This document shows positions 5,497 through 21,084 of a stretch of DNA of 32,173 nucleotides, piece after piece. Each line of letters starts with the position of its first letter. Positions within the stretch are counted from its first letter, which is position 1. The stretch covers positions 1 through 32,173 of the forward strand of contig BJHK01000028.1 of assembly GCA_014192425.1 (NCBI GenBank), given 5' to 3'. Under the pieces are notes generated by a model that did not search any database, was not told where the DNA came from, and saw only the letters and a program-made list of their open reading frames with translations. This stretch comes from Planctomycetia bacterium. GTDB lineage: Bacteria > Planctomycetota > Planctomycetia > Pirellulales > UBA1268. Both the position numbers and the translations under genes were made by a program.

Positions 5497-5862
5497 CACG
5501 TGCCTCGGTCCGCTGCCGGCCGGCACATGCCGCTGCCGGAGGGATCATCGTGGTTGACGGGCTGCCCGTTGTGCAAGCGATCGTGCCGGCACGGGGCATT
5601 CAGCGACGGTTGCAACGCTGCGGGCGTTGCAGGGCGGCGTGGCCGTGCGACGACCGGCCCGAAAAGTTTTGCCAATCATCACGACCCCTCGTAGGGCCGC
5701 CGCCCGCCCTGTCACGATCCCGCGTGCGCGGGACGGGCCACTGGTTGGAGGCGGCCCCCTCCTGCTAGAGTGCGGCGAAGAAGGTCCGCGGGATGGCGGA
5801 CCATTGACTCGGGGTATGCGGCGCTGCCCTGCGGCACGACCATCTACGGAGGAGGAAATCTC
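5497..5862. other. Divergent intergenic region with two hairpins
   Basis: These 366 bp separate the divergent MFS and oxoamine synthase genes, so both promoters should lie here. I see an 8-bp stem TGCAACGC/GCGTTGCA (5611-5618 and 5624-5631) around a TGCGG loop, a 7-bp stem TCCCGCG/CGCGGGA (5718-5724 and 5727-5733), and the palindrome GTGCCGGCAC (5583-5592). A -10-like TGCTAGAGT ends at 5771. No gene is evident in the gap. Confidence 0.5.
5763..5771 (+). promoter_or_regulatory. Possible extended -10 element for the oxoamine synthase gene
   Basis: TGCTAGAGT has the form TGnTAnnnT of an extended -10 box. A TTGGAG lies 15 bp upstream (5745-5750). It would give a leader of about 85 bases before the GTG start at 5863. 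This rests on the motif alone. Confidence 0.3.
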
Positions 5863-7446
5863 GTGGCCGGCATTGCAGCAACCGATTATTCGACACCCGC
5901 AGCCCGGGGCGAGCCCGGTGCCGACACGTGGATCGCCATCGCCGGAATCGTCTACGAAGAACTCGCCCGCGCCCGGCCGAGGGCGCGGCAGGTGAAGCTG
6001 ACGCCCGCGACCACGCTCGCCGAGGCGGGCATCGATGCCGTCGCGTTTCTCGACGCCGTCACGCGGCTGGAGGGCCGCTACCAGATGCGGTTTCGCGACG
6101 ACTGGCTGGCCGGCATCGACACCTGCGGCGACCTGATCGAGCGCATCGCCGAGCACATGTTCGACAACGCCGACCGCCGTGACGGCCGGGCGAAGCTGGC
6201 TCCCGTCGTCGTGCCACCGGTGGCAGCGCGGCGCACGCCGCCGGCAGCCCCCTCGTCCGATCCGTTCCCCGAGTGCGCCGCCCTCGAGGAGCGGCTCGCG
6301 GCCCTCGAATCCCAGGGGCTCGCCAACCCGTTCCTGCTCGCCAACGAGAGGGTGCGGCAGCGGACGGCCCGAGTCGCCGGCCGCGACGTGATCAACTTCA
6401 CGAGCTTCGATTATCTCGGACTCGCCGCCCACGCGGACGTGGCCCGCGCCGCCAAGGATGCCATCGACACGTTCGGCACGAGCGCGTCGGCGAGCCGGAT
6501 GGTGGGCGGCAATAACACGCTGCTCGACGAGCTTGACGCCGAGCTCGCAGCGTTCCTCGGCACCGAGCGGGCCGTCGTCTTTCCCTGCGGCTACGGCACG
6601 AACGCCTCCGTCTTCAACCACCTGTTCGGCGAGGGTGACCTGATCCTCTACGACGAGCTCGCGCACAACAGCATCGTGCAGGGCGCCGGCGCATCGAAGG
6701 CGGGCAAGCGGCCGTTCCGCCACAACGACCACGTCCAGCTCGACGCGCTGCTCCGCGACCTGCGGCCGAAGTATCGGCGCGTGGTGGTGGCGATCGAGGG
6801 CGTGTACAGCATGGACGGCGACTATCCTGACCTGCCCCGGTTCATCGACGTCAAGAAGCGGCACGACGCCCTGCTGTACGTGGACGAGGCCCATTCGCTG
6901 GGAACGATGGGCCCCGGCGGTCGGGGCATCTGCGAGTTCTTCGGCGTCGATCCGGCCGAAGGCGACCTGTGGATGGGGACGATCAGCAAGGCGCTCGGTG
7001 CCGGTGGCGGCTATCTGGCCGGCCGCGACCGCCTTGTCCGCTATCTGGGCTACACCACGCCTGCGTTCGTCTTCTCGACGGCGTGCTCGCCGCCGAACGC
7101 CGCGGCGGCCCTGGAAGGGCTGCGGGTCATCGGCCGCGAGCCATGGCGGGTCACGCGGCTGCGCGAGCGATCGGACCTGTTTCGCAAGCTTGCCCAGGAC
7201 TGCAATCTCGACACCGGCCCGAGCATCGACACGCCGGTGATCCCGATCATTCTCGGCAGTTCGACGCGGGCGATCCGCGTGTCGCAGCTGCTGCTCGAAC
7301 GCGGCATCAACGCCCGACCGATCCTCTACCCGGCGGTCCGCGAATCGGCGGCCCGCGTCCGCTTCTTCCTCACGGCGGAGCACACCGAGGAGCAGATCGT
7401 GCACGCTGTCGAAGCTCTCGCCGACGTCGTCCAGCTGACGGCCTGA
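5863..7446 (+). CDS. Alpha-oxoamine synthase (PLP) with N-terminal carrier-protein-like domain
   Basis: This is a 527-residue fold-type I PLP enzyme of the alpha-oxoamine synthase group, which joins an amino acid to an acyl thioester with loss of CO2 (BioF, KBL, SPT, ALAS). The start is GTG 5863, set by a strong GGAGGAGG 7 bases upstream. Residues 21-100 look like an acyl carrier protein (AGIDAVAFLDAVTRLEGRYQMRF), but the usual DSL is D58-A59-V60, so the phosphopantetheine serine is missing. The enzyme domain (about 140-527) carries NFTSFDYLGLA, TSASASRMVGG, IEGVYSMDGD, VDEAHSLGTMG (D341, H344) and the PLP lysine in TISKALGAGGGY (K376). The substrates are unknown. The carrier-like domain may dock a partner or acyl-CoA. 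The gene stands alone and is followed by a tandem repeat array. The family call is firm; the exact product is open. Confidence 0.85.
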   Translation: MAGIAATDYSTPAARGEPGADTWIAIAGIVYEELARARPRARQVKLTPATTLAEAGIDAVAFLDAVTRLEGRYQMRFRDDWLAGIDTCGDLIERIAEHMFDNADRRDGRAKLAPVVVPPVAARRTPPAAPSSDPFPECAALEERLAALESQGLANPFLLANERVRQRTARVAGRDVINFTSFDYLGLAAHADVARAAKDAIDTFGTSASASRMVGGNNTLLDELDAELAAFLGTERAVVFPCGYGTNASVFNHLFGEGDLILYDELAHNSIVQGAGASKAGKRPFRHNDHVQLDALLRDLRPKYRRVVVAIEGVYSMDGDYPDLPRFIDVKKRHDALLYVDEAHSLGTMGPGGRGICEFFGVDPAEGDLWMGTISKALGAGGGYLAGRDRLVRYLGYTTPAFVFSTACSPPNAAAALEGLRVIGREPWRVTRLRERSDLFRKLAQDCNLDTGPSIDTPVIPIILGSSTRAIRVSQLLLERGINARPILYPAVRESAARVRFFLTAEHTEEQIVHAVEALADVVQLTA

Positions 7447-7455
7447 CGCGGTGTG

Positions 7456-8292
7456 TTTCGCGCCGTCGCAGCCGACATGGCGTCTGTTTTTCGCGCCGTC
7501 GCAGCCGACACAGCGTCTGCTCCGGCTTACGGTCGCCGGGCGAAGCCCGGCTCCGCGCAAGCGATGATCGCACCGTTGACGGCGCTCTCCCGAGCCGGAG
7601 GATCGGCGGAAGCTCGAGGAGCGTGAGGCTGGCTGATTCTCGCGCCGTCGCAGCCGACACAGCGTCTGTTTTTCGCGCCGTCGCAGCCGACACAGCGTCT
7701 CCTCCGGCTTACGGTCGCCGGGCAAAGCCCGGCTCCGCGCAAGCGATGATCGCGCCGTTGACGGCACTCTCCGGAGCCGGAGGATCGGCGGAAGCTCGAG
7801 GAGCGTGAGGCTGGCTGATTCTCGCGCCGTCGCAGCCGACACAGCGTCTGTTTTTCGCGCCGTCGCAGCCGACACAGCGTCTCCTCCGGCTTACGGTCGC
7901 CGGGCAAAGCCCGGCTCCGCGCAAGCGATGATCGCGCCGTTGACGGCGCTCTCCCGAGCCGGAGGATCGGCGGAAGCTCGAGGAGCGTGAGGCTGGCTGA
8001 TTCTCGCGCCGTCACAGCCGACATGGCGTCTGCTCCGGCTTACGGTCGCCGGGCGAAGCCCGGCTCCGCGCAAGCGATGATCGCGCCGTTGACGGCGCTC
8101 TCCCGAGCCGGAGGATCGGCGGAAGCTCGAGGAGCGTGAGGCTGGCTGATTCTCGCGCCGTCACAGCCGACACAGCGTCTGCTCCGGCTTACGGTCGCCG
8201 GGCGAAGCCCGGCTCCGCGCAAGCGATGATCGCGCCGTTGACGGCGCTCTCCCGAGCCGGAGGATCGGCGGAAGCTCGAGGAGCGTGAGGCT
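7456..8292. repeat. Tandem array, five structured units of 149 or 182 bp
   Basis: Five copies of one unit follow each other head to tail. The marker CTCCGGCTTACGG begins at 7520, 7702, 7884, 8033 and 8182, giving periods of 182, 182, 149 and 149 bp. The 33-bp difference is an extra copy of a sub-repeat around CGCGCCGTCGCAGCCGAC. Each unit contains an outer stem CTCCGGCT/AGCCGGAG enclosing two hairpins: GCCGGGC-GAA-GCCCGGC and GCGCCG-TTGA-CGGCGC. In the last unit these lie at 8182-8189/8255-8262, 8197-8213 and 8232-8247. The array fills the gap between two convergent genes. Both strands read open over long stretches, but the predicted proteins are only translated repeats. Confidence 0.93.
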
Positions 8293-8306
8293 ATCCTGCC
8301 TCAGCG

Positions 8307-8410
8307 ACGAGACTTCTGCCGTCCTCCGGCGGATTGGGCATATCGACTTCTGCCGTCCTCCGGCGGGTTGGGCGATCGATCGCCCGCGGCCTCCGGCGGG
8401 TTGGGCGCGT
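8307..8410. repeat. Second short tandem repeat, three units of about 34 bp
   Basis: Three imperfect copies share the core CCTCCGGCGGGTTGGGC. The first two also share GACTTCTGCCGT in front; the third has diverged to GATCGCCCGCGG. They directly follow the structured array but share no sequence with it except a short CTCCGGC. They end about 20 bp before the 3' end of the minus-strand gene. Confidence 0.8.
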
Positions 8411-8427
8411 CGCACACCACACCTCGA

Positions 8428-11400
8428 TCAAGGAGCCGTGCGCGCGCCCCGCCACCCATTCCAGTCGGGCCGGCATTGCGGGCTGAAATCCGACTGCCGC
8501 CGCGTGAACAGGCTCCGACTCCGGTTCGACACACGCAGCGCGTCAGGCATGTCCGCGTACGATCCACCGCGGACGCCCGATCCCTGGCCGTCGGTCTTCC
8601 CGGCATCCTTCGGACTGCGCGTGCTGAACCGTGCCGGCGGCCAGTCGGCGGGCGGAGTCGTCGTGCCATCACCGTGGCTGCCGCGAAACGATCTCCCCGT
8701 CGCATCGGCCACCGTCACCACCTGCTCGCGGACGTTGCCCGAGAGCTCCATGATGCCCCAGTACGAGCCGCCGCCGGGAATGCGGCCGGTCGTCGCCGTC
8801 GCGAAAATCCCCGGCCGCATCGGCCCGCCCGGCACGCCGTTGATGTACGGGCTCACCGGGCCGCCGAAGAAGGCGGGCAGGGTCAGGTCGTGGCAGGCGT
8901 TGCCGGCCGTCTCCAGGGCGCCGGCGGCGATCCGCTCGCCCCGCCCGCCCTCGTCGGCGACGGTGTACTCGGCCTTGGCGATCGCCGCGGTTCCCCAGGC
9001 ATACTCGCCGGCCAGCGCCCGGCGCGGGCCCCGGCACGCCTTCTCATACTCCAGTTCGGTCAGCGGCCGCAGCGCTGCCCACGAGGCATGCTTCGCCCCG
9101 TCCCACCAGGCGAGCAGGTTGCAGGCCTGGTGCGGCTTCCGCGCGACGAGTCTGGGCCACGCACCCTGGAGCCCGTAGCGACCCGCCGCGGTCACGTGCC
9201 GCACCGCGTGTCCCTCGTCGCCTCCCGTCGTGTTGGCGAACTCGGCAGCGGAGAGCGTGTTGAGAAAATCCGTGAACTGACCGCGGGTCAGTTCATACCG
9301 CATGCAGTAGAAGGCGTCATGACCGGTCGGAAACCGGTCGTCGAGCGGCGCGGCGAGCCCGCGGGTCGCCTCGTCGCCGGCCCAGAGCATGCCCGGCTCG
9401 GCTCCGACCCGGCGCGCCGTTGTGCCGGCCGCCGCCGGACCGCTCCAGGCGGCATCGACGAGAAACGGGCCGCCCGACGTCGCCACGCCTGCGGCGACGA
9501 ACGCTCCCGCCTCGCTGCCCCCGGAACCGGCATGGAACGCGCCCGGCGGCACGCGCACCATGTCGATAGCGAAGACGCGCAGATCGACCGCCGCAGGGTC
9601 GTCGACGCCATCGGCAGCGTGCAGCCAGCGCAGCCCGACGGCGGCGAGATCGAGCGGGCCCTGACCGGGCGCCGCGCGATGGATGAACACGCCCCTGCCC
9701 CGCCCGCCGGTCAGGCCGACCTCGAGAGTGGCAGCGGCGGGCACGGAGTGATCGACCCGGTCGGCGGCGAGCGTGGCATGGGCGTAGCCATCGCCCCCCG
9801 GACGACGAAACTTCGCGAACACCCAGGCCGAACTCCAACTTTCGACCGCCTCGTCGCGGCCGGTCGCGGCCGTGGCGGCCGGCTCGGTCCAGCGGGCCCG
9901 CCAGGCGTTGCCCGACCGGATGTCGAAGCGGATCACGCTCTGCCCGGCGGCCGGCGCGTCTTCGCGGCGGACGGCGCCGACCGCGACGATCGTCGCCGCG
10001 GCGTCGGCGCCGCGAAACCGCTCCGGCGCCGCATCGGCCGGCGCAGTGCCGGGGGCATCCGGATGCGCGGCGGCCTCGATGGCCATGGCGTCGTTCACGA
10101 ACGCGTCGAACGTCCACGTCCAGTATGCGAATGCACGCCGCGCGTCCGCGTCGTCGGCCCTCTCGATGGCAGCCCGGGCCTCGGCGCGGAGTGACTTCAT
10201 CCGGGCCACGACATCCGCCGGCCAGATGCTTCTGAAGGCCGCCGGCGGGATGCGATTCTCATCGACCCGCAACGCGACACCCTCCGGCAGCCGCTGCCAG
10301 CGGTCGCACTGCAGCCGGAGCAGGTCCCGGGCGGGCTTCGCGCCCGCGCCGAAGAGCCGGCGGCACATCTCGTCGAGCGTCGCATCGACGTCGAAGTCGG
10401 GGTTCCACAGCGCCTTCATCCAGACGTAGGCGGTCGGTGCGGCCGTGATCTGGCAGCCGGCGCCGTAGGTCAAGGCCTGGGCACCGGCGATCGCCTCGCG
10501 ATTGGCCGCAAAGAAGTCGCGGGCGAGGTGCGGGAACTGGACCGGCCCATGCGTCCAGTCGCTGGGGCTTTGGAAGTCGACCCACAGACCGATCTTCCGC
10601 CCGGAGGCCTGCCGCCAGTCGCGGCTGTAGCGCTCCGCGACCGCCCGGACGGCCGGCTGCTGCCAGAGGCCGAGCGTGCCCACGTCGAGCGAATGGACGA
10701 CGAGGTTGTCGGGATAGGTGATTCCCCGGGCGCACTCCGGGACCGTGAAGGGCGCGTAGATCACCTCCTTGCCCGGCCAGCGGTTCGCGACGGCGATGCA
10801 CACATCGCGCAGGAAACCGCCGACGAGGGCTGCCTCACCGTCCCGCGCGACCGTCGCCCGGCAACGCTCGCAGTGGCACGTGCCCACCAGCGGCTCCCAG
10901 CCCATCGTGCCCGGGGACCAGATGTTGATGCCCGTGGCCGTGATGCCGCCGGGCCGCGGCCCCTTCCCGCCGCCGCCCCAGGCCCGTTCCATGCCGTCGA
11001 TGTAGAACTGCAACGTCTCCGGCGCCGACAGGCAGAAGGCGACCCGCGACCGGCTCCCGTCGGCCAGCAGCTGAAACATCGCCGCCGGCTCGGCGGGCAG
11101 CCCGGGGCCGTACTCGAAGACGCGGGCTCCCTGCATGACCCGCTCGGGCTGCCAGCCATCCTCGCCGCGAACGAGGAGCAACTGGGTGCCGAACCACAGC
11201 GGCTCGCCCCCCTTGGGAAACAGTTCGCGATCGAGCGGAGACAACGTTTCGTCACGAGAGCGGGCCTGCATGAACCACCAGTCCTGATACATCCGCCGCA
11301 GGGCGAAGACGGGAGCGTCTCGGTAGTGGACCGGTTCCACGGCGAGCGTCGTCCGGCGCGGCACCGACCGGCCGCCGCCGGCCGCGGGCCAGTACCAGCG

Positions 11401-11916
11401 GACGCCGACGATCCGCTCCAGGAAGTCGGCGACCGCCCAGGCAACGCCGCCGTTGGGCTTGCCCGGGAGGGGGTGCCTGCTGCCGACGAGATACACCCGT
11501 CCGGCCGCGGTCTTGACGACGAATCCCTCGGCCGGAAGCCCGGCGGGGTCGATGCCGGCCTGCCGGCTCTCGGCACAGTCGCCGATGATGATTGCCGGCT
11601 GGTCCGGAGCGGGCGCGGCATCCACCACCTCCAGCGTGGCGCCGGTCGACGCCTTGATGCAGGCGACCAGTTCGGCGACGAACTGCTTGAGGAACGGAGG
11701 AGGCACGGCATCGTCTTTTCCGCCCCGACCCGCGGCCACGTGGACCACGCACCGCGCCCCCCCGTCCTCGACGAGCACGACCGGGTCGTGCCGCGGCTGT
11801 TCCAGCCACGTGACGCCTGCCAGGTCCGGCGGCTGGTACGCCCCGTCCGCCGCCACGGCGCGGCTGCCGCTGGCTGCGATCGCCAGCATCACGACGACGA
11901 CCCATCGTTTGAACAT
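8428..11916 (-). CDS. Secreted DUF4838 protein fused to an FGE-sulfatase-fold domain
   Basis: This is a 1162-residue exported protein. ATG 11916 is preferred over the longer frame (11982) because GGGAG precedes it by 9 bases and a clean signal peptide follows (KRWVVVVMLAIAASGSRAVAA). Residues ~90-180 form an alpha-glucuronidase-like N-terminal domain (FVVKTAAGRVYLVGS, VRWYWP). Residues ~200-560 match DUF4838, including the TCHCERCRA cysteine cluster at about 345. A region rich in Ala/Gly with a beta-sandwich look follows. Residues ~840-1160 have the formylglycine-generating-enzyme fold (YELTRGQFTDFLN, LTELEYEKACRG, GIMELSGNVREQ, VRGGSY, GWRGAR). The catalytic cysteines of true FGE near the C-terminus are not present, so this end is probably a binding or structural module. 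A role in polysaccharide breakdown at the cell surface is inferred. RDD lies 99 bp upstream on the same strand. Confidence 0.8.
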   Translation of the reverse strand: MFKRWVVVVMLAIAASGSRAVAADGAYQPPDLAGVTWLEQPRHDPVVLVEDGGARCVVHVAAGRGGKDDAVPPPFLKQFVAELVACIKASTGATLEVVDAAPAPDQPAIIIGDCAESRQAGIDPAGLPAEGFVVKTAAGRVYLVGSRHPLPGKPNGGVAWAVADFLERIVGVRWYWPAAGGGRSVPRRTTLAVEPVHYRDAPVFALRRMYQDWWFMQARSRDETLSPLDRELFPKGGEPLWFGTQLLLVRGEDGWQPERVMQGARVFEYGPGLPAEPAAMFQLLADGSRSRVAFCLSAPETLQFYIDGMERAWGGGGKGPRPGGITATGINIWSPGTMGWEPLVGTCHCERCRATVARDGEAALVGGFLRDVCIAVANRWPGKEVIYAPFTVPECARGITYPDNLVVHSLDVGTLGLWQQPAVRAVAERYSRDWRQASGRKIGLWVDFQSPSDWTHGPVQFPHLARDFFAANREAIAGAQALTYGAGCQITAAPTAYVWMKALWNPDFDVDATLDEMCRRLFGAGAKPARDLLRLQCDRWQRLPEGVALRVDENRIPPAAFRSIWPADVVARMKSLRAEARAAIERADDADARRAFAYWTWTFDAFVNDAMAIEAAAHPDAPGTAPADAAPERFRGADAAATIVAVGAVRREDAPAAGQSVIRFDIRSGNAWRARWTEPAATAATGRDEAVESWSSAWVFAKFRRPGGDGYAHATLAADRVDHSVPAAATLEVGLTGGRGRGVFIHRAAPGQGPLDLAAVGLRWLHAADGVDDPAAVDLRVFAIDMVRVPPGAFHAGSGGSEAGAFVAAGVATSGGPFLVDAAWSGPAAAGTTARRVGAEPGMLWAGDEATRGLAAPLDDRFPTGHDAFYCMRYELTRGQFTDFLNTLSAAEFANTTGGDEGHAVRHVTAAGRYGLQGAWPRLVARKPHQACNLLAWWDGAKHASWAALRPLTELEYEKACRGPRRALAGEYAWGTAAIAKAEYTVADEGGRGERIAAGALETAGNACHDLTLPAFFGGPVSPYINGVPGGPMRPGIFATATTGRIPGGGSYWGIMELSGNVREQVVTVADATGRSFRGSHGDGTTTPPADWPPARFSTRSPKDAGKTDGQGSGVRGGSYADMPDALRVSNRSRSLFTRRQSDFSPQCRPDWNGWRGARTAP

Positions 11917-16400: not shown

Positions 16401-19067
16401 ATGCAACGGCTGCTCGCCCCCGTGCTCGTGTTGCTCGTCGCCGCGGTCGCTGCGGCGGCGGAACCGCTGCGTTTCGGCGGCTACCACACGCGGCTGGTGA
16501 CCGGCGCCGACTGGGAGGCCCGCTGCCGCTCCGGCGCGCATGCCGACGTGGTCGTGCGGGTCGCCGACGCGGGGGGCGACCTCGTCTTCTGGCGCGGCAC
16601 GGGCTACCTGCCCGAGTGGCGGACTCCGCGCGGCGCGTGGCGGCTGGCGGAGTTCGTTCCGCGGCAGGGCGACGGCCCGCCCGAACGGCCCGATCGGGTC
16701 AACGCCTATTCCAACGTCGCCATCGTCGCCTCGACGGCAGACGAGGTCACGATCCGCTGGCGCTACCTCGCCCGCTTCGCTCCCGGCAACCCGCACGGCG
16801 ACGTCCGACAGGAGAACGTCGTCGAGGAGACGTTCGTCGTCTCCCGCGCCGGCACGGTCGAGCGGACGGTCCGGCGCGGGACGCCGCGCATCGATGCCTG
16901 GGACGACCCTGCCGGGTGGGATGTGCAGCGGGTGCGGCTGCATCCCGACGGCATCGAGGAGACGGCGCTGCCACGGCCGCTGGTCGAGCGGCAGCCCACC
17001 CGGGTCGCCGGCGCTCCGCGGCTCGATTTCGGCGCGGCGGCGCCGGCGGTCTGGTTTCGCTTCGACGAGGGGGAGGGAGACACGACCCACGAGGAGCGGT
17101 CCGGCACTGCCTTCGAAGTCCACGGCCACAAATCGCTGTGGACGCCCGGCATCTCGGGCGCGGCCCTGGCGCTCGACGGCTACCATTCCGCGATCGTCGT
17201 TCCGGCCGACCGCGTGCCAAAGCTCACGGGCAGCCTGACGGTCGAAGGCTGGGTGGCGCTCGGAGCGTACCCGTGGAACTGGGCGCCGCTCGTCCAGCAC
17301 GGGGACGAGAGCGGATTCTTCCTCGGCATCGACAGCCACGGCTATCCGGGGTTCGGCGTCCGGGCCGGTGACCGCTGGGAGCTGCTCTCCCGGCCGGGCA
17401 AGCCACCGTATGCCGACCGACTGACGCTGCGCCGCTGGTACCACCTCGCCGGAACGTACGACGCGGCGACGGGCGGCATGCGGCTCTTCGTCGACGGCCG
17501 GGAGGTGGCCCGCGGCGCGGCCCCGGCCGGGGGCGTCGCCCGGCCGCCGGACGACCTGCGGATCGGCAAGGCCGGAATCCTGCGGAAGCCCACGGAGGGA
17601 ACGCACGACAACCTGCCGAGCGAGTTCGGCCTCGACGGCCTCGTCGACGAGGTCCGCGTCCATGCCGCCGCGCTCGACGGCGATGCGATTGCCCGCACCG
17701 CGGCCGTGGCCGGAACGACGCCACCGGCGGTCGCGGCGGAGGCGTTGCCCCCGCGGGCCCTGCCCCGCCCCGACACGGGTGGCCGGTTCGGCGCGGTCGC
17801 GACCCGGCTCCGCTACCACCCGACGTGGGACAACCTGTGGCGGGTCGGCCCGCAGGCCGACGTCGTCGTCGGCTTCGACCGGCTGCCGACGACGCTCGTC
17901 TTCTGGCGCGGCGTCAGCTACATCCCGATGCTCGTCAACGACGCGCACCAGTGGTTCACGCAGGAATTCAACGAGACCGGGTTCACGGCGGATGCGCCCG
18001 GCGACTGCGAGCCGATGTCCGACAAGGCCTGCCGCGACTCGCACGTCCGGATCATCGAGCGCGACGGCCCGCGGGCGGTGGTCCACTGGCGTTACCGGCT
18101 CATCAACTCCGAGTACCACTGGGCCAACATGGACGAACACGGCTGGGGCGACGTCGCCGACTGGCACTACCACGTGTATCCCGACGGGGTGGCCGTCAAG
18201 GTGATGCGCTGCTACTCGTCGAAGCCGGAGACGTGGCACGAGTGGAACGAGCAGATCGCGATCCTCGGCGAGGGACAGCATCCCGAGCAGGTCCTCGGCC
18301 GGACGCCGGTGATGACGCTGGTGGACGGTGAGGGACGGGCGACGAGCTACGACTGGAACCCCGCCCCGCCCAAGCCCGACTTTCGCGACAAGACGATCCA
18401 GCTGGTGCACCTCACCGGCACGCACAAGCCGTTCGCGATCCAGCGGTTCGACGGCGGCGGCATGTATCTGGGCGAGACGACCTGGTATTCGGTGTTTCCC
18501 ACCTGGAATCACTGGCCCACGGCCCAGATCAACTCCTCGGGGCGGAACGCCAGCTTTCCCGACCGGGCCGCCCACGCCTCGATCTCCCAGCTCAAGTGGC
18601 CCGTGAGCCGGCAGCAGCGCGGGGCGGTTCCGTTCGAGGAGAAGATCCTCATGGAAGGGCTGACGGACCGTCCGGCGGCCGAGCTTCTGCCGCTGGCCCG
18701 CTCGTGGCTCGATCCGCCCCCGGCGGTCGACGTCATGGGGGGCACGGGGGGCGACTACGCCGCCGGCCGCCGCGCGTATGTCTTCGACTGGCGCGGCGAA
18801 CCGCTTTCCTTCGCGCTCGAGGCGTCGGCCCGCCGGCCGATCCGCAACCTGTGCTTCGAGGTGCGCAACTGGCCCGGCCCGGCGACGGCGGCCACCCTCA
18901 ACGTCGACGGAAGCGACCGCGCCCCCGGGCCGGCGTTCCGCCAGGCGGTGCGGATCGCCCCCGATGCATCTTGGACGCTCGTCGTGTGGCTGGAACTGTC
19001 GGCCGACGAGCCGCGCCGGTTCCAGATCAGCGCCCGCGACGCCGCCACCGCGGACCGCCGTCCCTGA
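16401..19067 (+). CDS. Secreted LamG-domain protein with duplicated flanking domain
   Basis: This is an 888-residue exported protein of unknown function. ATG 16401 is preferred to 16374 because it begins the signal peptide directly (QRLLAPVLVLLVAAVAAAAEP) and has AAGG upstream. Residues ~25-190 form a beta-rich domain. Residues ~210-425 are a concanavalin/LamG-type domain (VWFRFDEGEGD, LTVEGWVAL, WYHLAGTYDAATGGMRLFVDG, GLVDEVRVHAAALDGDAI). Residues ~450-620 repeat the first domain: both copies share an RL.....W......G..ADVVV pattern, LVFWRGxxYxP and a later RWRYL or HWRYRL. A further beta-rich tail completes the protein. Binding or cutting of a carbohydrate is a guess from LamG. The gene follows DUF1552 by 58 bp. 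Its last codons are part of a 13-bp tandem repeat, so the C-terminus may vary between strains. Confidence 0.75.
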   Translation: MQRLLAPVLVLLVAAVAAAAEPLRFGGYHTRLVTGADWEARCRSGAHADVVVRVADAGGDLVFWRGTGYLPEWRTPRGAWRLAEFVPRQGDGPPERPDRVNAYSNVAIVASTADEVTIRWRYLARFAPGNPHGDVRQENVVEETFVVSRAGTVERTVRRGTPRIDAWDDPAGWDVQRVRLHPDGIEETALPRPLVERQPTRVAGAPRLDFGAAAPAVWFRFDEGEGDTTHEERSGTAFEVHGHKSLWTPGISGAALALDGYHSAIVVPADRVPKLTGSLTVEGWVALGAYPWNWAPLVQHGDESGFFLGIDSHGYPGFGVRAGDRWELLSRPGKPPYADRLTLRRWYHLAGTYDAATGGMRLFVDGREVARGAAPAGGVARPPDDLRIGKAGILRKPTEGTHDNLPSEFGLDGLVDEVRVHAAALDGDAIARTAAVAGTTPPAVAAEALPPRALPRPDTGGRFGAVATRLRYHPTWDNLWRVGPQADVVVGFDRLPTTLVFWRGVSYIPMLVNDAHQWFTQEFNETGFTADAPGDCEPMSDKACRDSHVRIIERDGPRAVVHWRYRLINSEYHWANMDEHGWGDVADWHYHVYPDGVAVKVMRCYSSKPETWHEWNEQIAILGEGQHPEQVLGRTPVMTLVDGEGRATSYDWNPAPPKPDFRDKTIQLVHLTGTHKPFAIQRFDGGGMYLGETTWYSVFPTWNHWPTAQINSSGRNASFPDRAAHASISQLKWPVSRQQRGAVPFEEKILMEGLTDRPAAELLPLARSWLDPPPAVDVMGGTGGDYAAGRRAYVFDWRGEPLSFALEASARRPIRNLCFEVRNWPGPATAATLNVDGSDRAPGPAFRQAVRIAPDASWTLVVWLELSADEPRRFQISARDAATADRRP

Positions 19068-19127
19068 CCGCCGTCCCTGACCGCCGTCCCCAGCCGCCGT
19101 CCCCAGCCGCCGTCCCCAGCCGCCGTC
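19053..19127. repeat. 13-bp tandem repeat, about six copies, spanning a stop codon
   Basis: Six copies of a 13-bp unit with core CCGCCGTCCC follow one another. The first copies carry TGA after the core and the later ones CAG. The stop codon of the LamG gene (19065-19067) belongs to the first repeat junction. Change in copy number or a T-to-C change would alter the protein end. It ends 20 bp before the next gene. Confidence 0.85.

Positions 19128-20445: not shown

Positions 20446-21084
<639 letters not shown>

Follow-up and report, generated by a model that had tools for sequence, protein, structure and literature searches.

Two convergent genes in the window, i.e., the whole stretch of 32,173 nucleotides analyzed here, are separated by a gap that is filled by a tandem array of hairpin-bearing repeat units, with their stops at 7446 (+) and 8428 (-) flanking the array (Table 1). 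The upstream gene codes for an aminotransferase ending in a TGA stop codon 10 nt ahead of the array; its longest ORF starts at 5770, and the C-termini of same-genus orthologues align to the same point or near it. A repeat search together with TRF on the window reproduced the five copies with spacings of 182, 182, 149 and 149 bp, and gene calling the convergent setting, that the original prediction had described, and the 33-bp excess of the longer period over the shorter corresponds to a duplicated 5' module. Placing the units in register bore out two finer points, namely that the loop of the first hairpin changes from GAA to AAA in units 2 and 3, and that unit 1 (GCACCG) and unit 2 (GGCAC) each have a mismatched stem in the second hairpin. 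The array had been closed at 8292; however, the sequence goes on through a 3' tail and two extra copies of the end of this tail up to 8406.

Table 1. Features of the repeat array and of the genes flanking it, in window positions
Feature	Positions	Strand	Basis
Class I/II aminotransferase with N-terminal extension, upstream gene	5863..7446	+	Gene calling, domain search, same-genus orthologues
Partial 5' module (A part), first element past the stop codon	7457..7486	+	nhmmer, iterated AB model
Unit 1: AB 7490-7553, spacer holding the earlier-proposed hairpin 2, E 7593-7630, no tail	7490..7630	+	Units in register, nhmmer
Unit 2: partial A 7640-7668, AB 7672-7735, E 7775-7812, no tail	7640..7812	+	nhmmer
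Unit 3: partial A 7822-7850, AB 7854-7917, E 7957-7994, no tail	7822..7994	+	nhmmer
Unit 4: AB 8004-8066, E 8106-8143, no tail	8004..8143	+	nhmmer
Unit 5: AB 8153-8215, E 8255-8293; 3' tail after this unit only	8153..8293	+	nhmmer, tail comparison
Complete E+tail core: imperfect long hairpin, TATCCT loop, two tandem G.A/A.G mismatches	8252..8338	+	CM R1 (99.1 bits), covariation, fold z -5.95
Conserved 3' tail TCCTGCCTCAGCGACGAGACTTCTGCCGTCCTCCGGCGGATTGGGC, which supplies the real pairing partner for the E arm GCCGGAGGATCGGC	8294..8339	+	Tail comparison, covariation
Two tandem copies of the tail end, 8345-8373 and 8378-8406	8345..8406	+	Repeat search, TRF
DUF4838 and FGE-sulfatase domain protein, convergent gene with stop at 8428	8428..11916	-	Gene calling, domain search

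Elsewhere in the window, a second and unrelated stop-proximal tandem repeat of 13 bp (ACCGCCGTCCCCA, 5.7 copies, 19054-19127) begins in the final codons of the gene at 16401-19067 and continues beyond its stop, and a CCTGAG hexamer (7.3 copies, 20493-20536) encodes an LSLSLS run within the N-terminal portion of the product of the gene at 20446-21084. Toward the left end, an ISL3-family transposase lies beside an ORF with a transposase-type helix-turn-helix (118-1504).

The genome to which the window belongs, that of a freshwater member of the Pirellulales (3.98 Mb, with 70.5% GC in the stretches read), contains many such arrays: a single unit used as a BLAST query gave 137 matches in genome searches, falling into about 36 arrays. 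Iterated profiles resolve these into a 64-nt AB module (TTCGCGCCGTCGCAGCCGACACGGCGTCTGCTCCGGCTTACGGTCGCCGGGCGAAGCCCGGCTC) present in 140 copies and a 39-nt E module present in 70 copies, and most arrays carry, after their last E, a common tail (GAGCGTGAGGCTATCCTGCCTCAGCGACGAGACTTCTGCCGTCCTCCGGCGGGTTGGGC) with a shared 3' terminus. AB copies are more similar within arrays (95.4% identity) than between arrays (86.9%), as is expected from tandem copying in place. The structure that had been drawn for each unit was a three-way junction, with an outer stem (CTCCGGCT/AGCCGGAG) enclosing two hairpins. In isolation, segments of 84-101 nt do fold in this way in ViennaRNA, with ordinary to good stability (z-scores of -0.9, -3.8, -4.4, -2.8 and -2.8 for the five segments); a whole 153-nt unit folds no better than shuffles (z -0.39). 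However, the outer stem and the second hairpin are not conserved in other arrays, the latter being part of the AB-to-E spacer, which differs between arrays and ranges from 10 to 113 nt. The first hairpin (GCCGGGC-GAA-GCCCGGC), contained in AB, is instead kept with compensatory changes, e.g., GCCGTGC/GCACGGC in the same genome and GTCGTGC/GCACGAC, among others, in relatives. As copies elsewhere thus ignore two of the three stems, an outcome that the prediction had itself put forward as its refutation, the junction has to be given up as a conserved structure, while hairpin 1 survives, along with the broader proposal of a repeated structured element that is present in numerous copies, shows compensatory changes and lies for the most part between convergent genes. 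This serves as a caution that the conserved structure of a repeat may differ from a local fold, however convincing.

Extension of the E+tail profile to relatives, followed by derivation of a structure from 46 diverse copies, identified what is conserved: a core of 88 nt forming a single long imperfect hairpin, topped by an apical stem that closes a TATCCT loop. Its 5' side reads GCCGGAGGA-T-CGGC.GAAG.(C)T.CGAG.GAGC and its 3' side GCGA.CGAG.A.CTTC.T.GCCG.TCCTCCGGC. Two-sided changes are seen in 19 of the 30 counted pairs, and the 126 two-sided cells compare with 39 in shuffles (none of 500 reaching the observed value) and at most 53 in slid controls. The stem includes two tandem G.A/A.G mismatches, one of which becomes G-C/C-G in seven copies. 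Folding of the core gives z-scores of -5.95 for the + strand and -5.1 for the - strand. Within this hairpin, AGCCGGAG, previously assigned to the outer stem, is the 5' arm: its variants track the tail, e.g., GCAGGAAGA/TCTTCCTGC, whereas the AB sequence CTCCGGCT is mostly constant. Further, the outer stem is unformed in the full last unit, which when folded whole consists of an AB domain beside the long E+tail hairpin. A small hairpin within the core, GCTC-GAG-GAGC, was likewise rejected, being 93% paired with zero compensatory changes while the alternative pairing of the long hairpin covaries. CM R1, the model of the core, has 68 hits in the window's genome, of which about 20 lie outside arrays, and recovers a single complete core in the window. 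It additionally gives weak matches at 7954-8054 (27.5 bits) and 8103-8203 (23.8 bits), in which E pairs with the next AB, a hint at a possible distant relationship between AB and the tail half.

The arrays are placed non-randomly. In 22 of 34 scorable arrays AB starts at most 36 nt past a sense stop codon, eight of these within 5 nt, as against a mean of 10.5 arrays when they are placed randomly inside their own gaps (0 of 20,000 simulations reached 22). Gaps between convergent genes hold 23 of the 34 arrays, compared with 50 of 283 control gaps (18%) from 400 kb of control regions (P about 2e-10). Gene calls were made with a codon-usage predictor built for this work and checked against Pfam for some genes, and the five arrays whose upstream neighbor appears on the opposite strand may reflect gene-calling errors. 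The genes ahead of arrays are unrelated and mostly intact housekeeping genes (LepA, EF-P, GyrB, a sigma-70 factor, UvrD, FtsK, HemN and others), and the complete C-terminal domains of several of them indicate that the arrays follow native stops. This anchoring may represent target choice, survival at the sites of least harm, as has been argued for pneumococcal repeats (PMC3049150), or a useful effect on the mRNA end, and the data do not separate these three.

Among 196 genomes of the order, CM R1 matches the core in 32, all within the family of the window's genome; the named records that share this core come from Pirellulales and other planctomycete MAGs, of which several are lake-derived by isolate name. 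In JAFMIU, a member of the same genus, the core lies inside near-identical elements of 161 bp with inverted ends (TAGAGCGC...GCGCTCTA), which occur as single scattered copies, often directly abutting a TAG stop; for 20 copies both neighbors were called, and here about 15 contacts abut a stop directly, with the same two spacings recurring. At one such locus the convergent genes abut without the element in other genera. CTAG is found at both ends, which would be compatible with duplication of TA; the empty sites, only about 75% identical, are too diverged to show an exact duplication. A sample of CTAG occupancy over 262 kb of one relative contained no elements inside the sampled stretch. AB, for its part, is embedded in relatives in a different, larger palindromic repeat. 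The covered gaps behind same-genus orthologues of the aminotransferase have no AB array, and several of them hold other hairpin repeats, some GTAG-tagged; in two other species (L131 and L132) tandem GTAG-tagged hairpins (CGTAGCACAGGTTTTCAACCTGTG) lie a few nt past the stop of the orthologue. At another relative's locus (L157:35-118) a Twister-sister ribozyme match was recorded at 32.7 bits (E 0.0013), under the gathering score of 34.

Comparison with known systems helps to situate this family. The BOX elements of Streptococcus pneumoniae (boxA-boxB(n)-boxC) are likewise short, non-coding modular repeats with fixed ends, a variable number of middle modules and stem-loops, and are enriched between convergent genes (PMC3049150). 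The likeness is one of modular layout alone, in another phylum, and the present arrays differ in two ways: they are tied to stop codons at a distance of a few nt, and their repeated unit includes the 5' half of the terminal hairpin. The RUP elements and other MITEs associated with IS630 are comparable as hairpin elements of about 100-160 bp with inverted ends, and the 161-bp form in the relative has TA/CTAG-type ends. RUP has been linked to IS630-Spn1 (PMC2229807), and ISY100/IS630 elements insert at TA, which they duplicate (PMC2170065, where a CTAG preference of IS630 is cited); the CTAG ends recall the TA-inserting IS630/Tc1 group. Unlike these MITEs, the arrays of the window's genome have no terminal inverted repeat, and the 5' end of the array is not a CTAG site. 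REPs and REPINs are also extragenic palindromes often found behind genes; those with a GTAG tag have been recorded in Planctomycetes (PMC3733652), and in E. coli a part in translational control has been considered for REPs lying no more than 15 nt past an ORF (PMC12306157). In contrast to the GTAG and CGTC families, the core described here is longer, has no tag tetranucleotide and does not lie beside a RAYT gene.

Taken together, the family is a lineage-specific variant within the known MITE/BOX-type repeats, and the array in the window is probably a tandemly expanded, lineage-specific non-coding hairpin repeat that lodges behind stop codons and derives from a small non-autonomous mobile element, as opposed to an RNA tied to one particular gene. 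In this scenario the 3' half, i.e., the E module and tail, would be the mobile core; ahead of it, in the window's genome, lies the second hairpin module, AB, and this composite could then have multiplied in place through slippage or unequal recombination. Since an insertion behind a stop codon harms nothing, arrays would accumulate between convergent genes, with target preference possibly favoring such sites too, and any effect on mRNA 3' ends would be incidental. Consistent with a MITE, the repeats are short, non-coding and dispersed in many copies with presence/absence variation, while inverted ends are seen in the 161-bp form of the relative and not at the ends of the window's arrays. The mobilizing enzyme suggested by its CTAG ends would be of IS630/Tc1 type; however, searches for an autonomous partner of the IS630 type found none with matching ends: the window's genome gave no DDE_3 match, and where a relative has IS630-like fragments close to two copies of the core, these have no clean shared ends. 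The covariation across genera could, moreover, also reflect selection for RNA function.

The latter point bears on the alternative that best withstands the data, which we nevertheless consider rather unlikely, namely that the arrays are functional 3'-UTR elements kept behind stop codons by selection: transcribed as the final part of the mRNA of the upstream gene, their hairpins would hold off 3' exonucleases or serve, in the manner of REPs, as a terminator or a barrier between convergent transcripts. Arrays at only about 1% of genes, together with their absence from orthologous genes of relatives, speak against such a role, for which the sense orientation, the nearness to the stop codon, the strong conservation of structure with two-sided changes and the low z-scores on both strands would otherwise argue. 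The other hairpin repeats in the same gap of several other species could be viewed in the same light; yet the convergent bias itself is shared by the parasitic BOX and RUP repeats of pneumococcus (PMC3049150), and no U-tract terminator was found, a scan of 7300-8600 for a GC-rich hairpin followed by a T run giving none. A role in mRNA 3' ends is possible. An intermediate version, in which a mobile or structure-selected hairpin specifically recognizes the stop-codon region (TAG/CTAG in relatives, directly past the stop in the window's genome) and afterwards influences the 3' end of the mRNA, the recognized part being the double tandem G.A motif together with the TATCCT loop, seems to us unlikely as well.

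It is highly improbable that the array represents a set of independently transcribed small non-coding RNA genes: the conserved loop and tandem G.A motif of the core might suggest as much, but no promoter-like site was found at the array, no Rfam family scored above its gathering threshold on the element in the window or on the core at ten loci of relatives, and some genomes have many dispersed copies. Mobilization as a REP/BIME array by a RAYT transposase, to which the palindromic, extragenic and clustered nature of the copies, the GTAG-tagged hairpins of relatives and one Y1_Tnp gene in the window's genome would point, is just as improbable, given that this sole Y1_Tnp gene has no AB or core copies in its fetched flanks and that the core measures 88 nt rather than 20-40 and is untagged. 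Finally, an integron attC site was dismissed, as many arrays have a GTTGGGC 3' end without a 5' RYYYAAC and the motif is not conserved in relatives.

Among bacterial interspersed hairpin repeats a preference for positions downstream of genes is usual, whereas anchoring at a few nt from stop codons, over dozens of unrelated housekeeping genes, has rarely been described. The probable mobile repeat found here is a clean case: its ends are defined, its covariation spans the family, and the same gaps show turnover from species to species. It thereby lets one ask whether such repeats seek out stop codons or simply persist behind them, and whether they alter the 3' ends of mRNAs.
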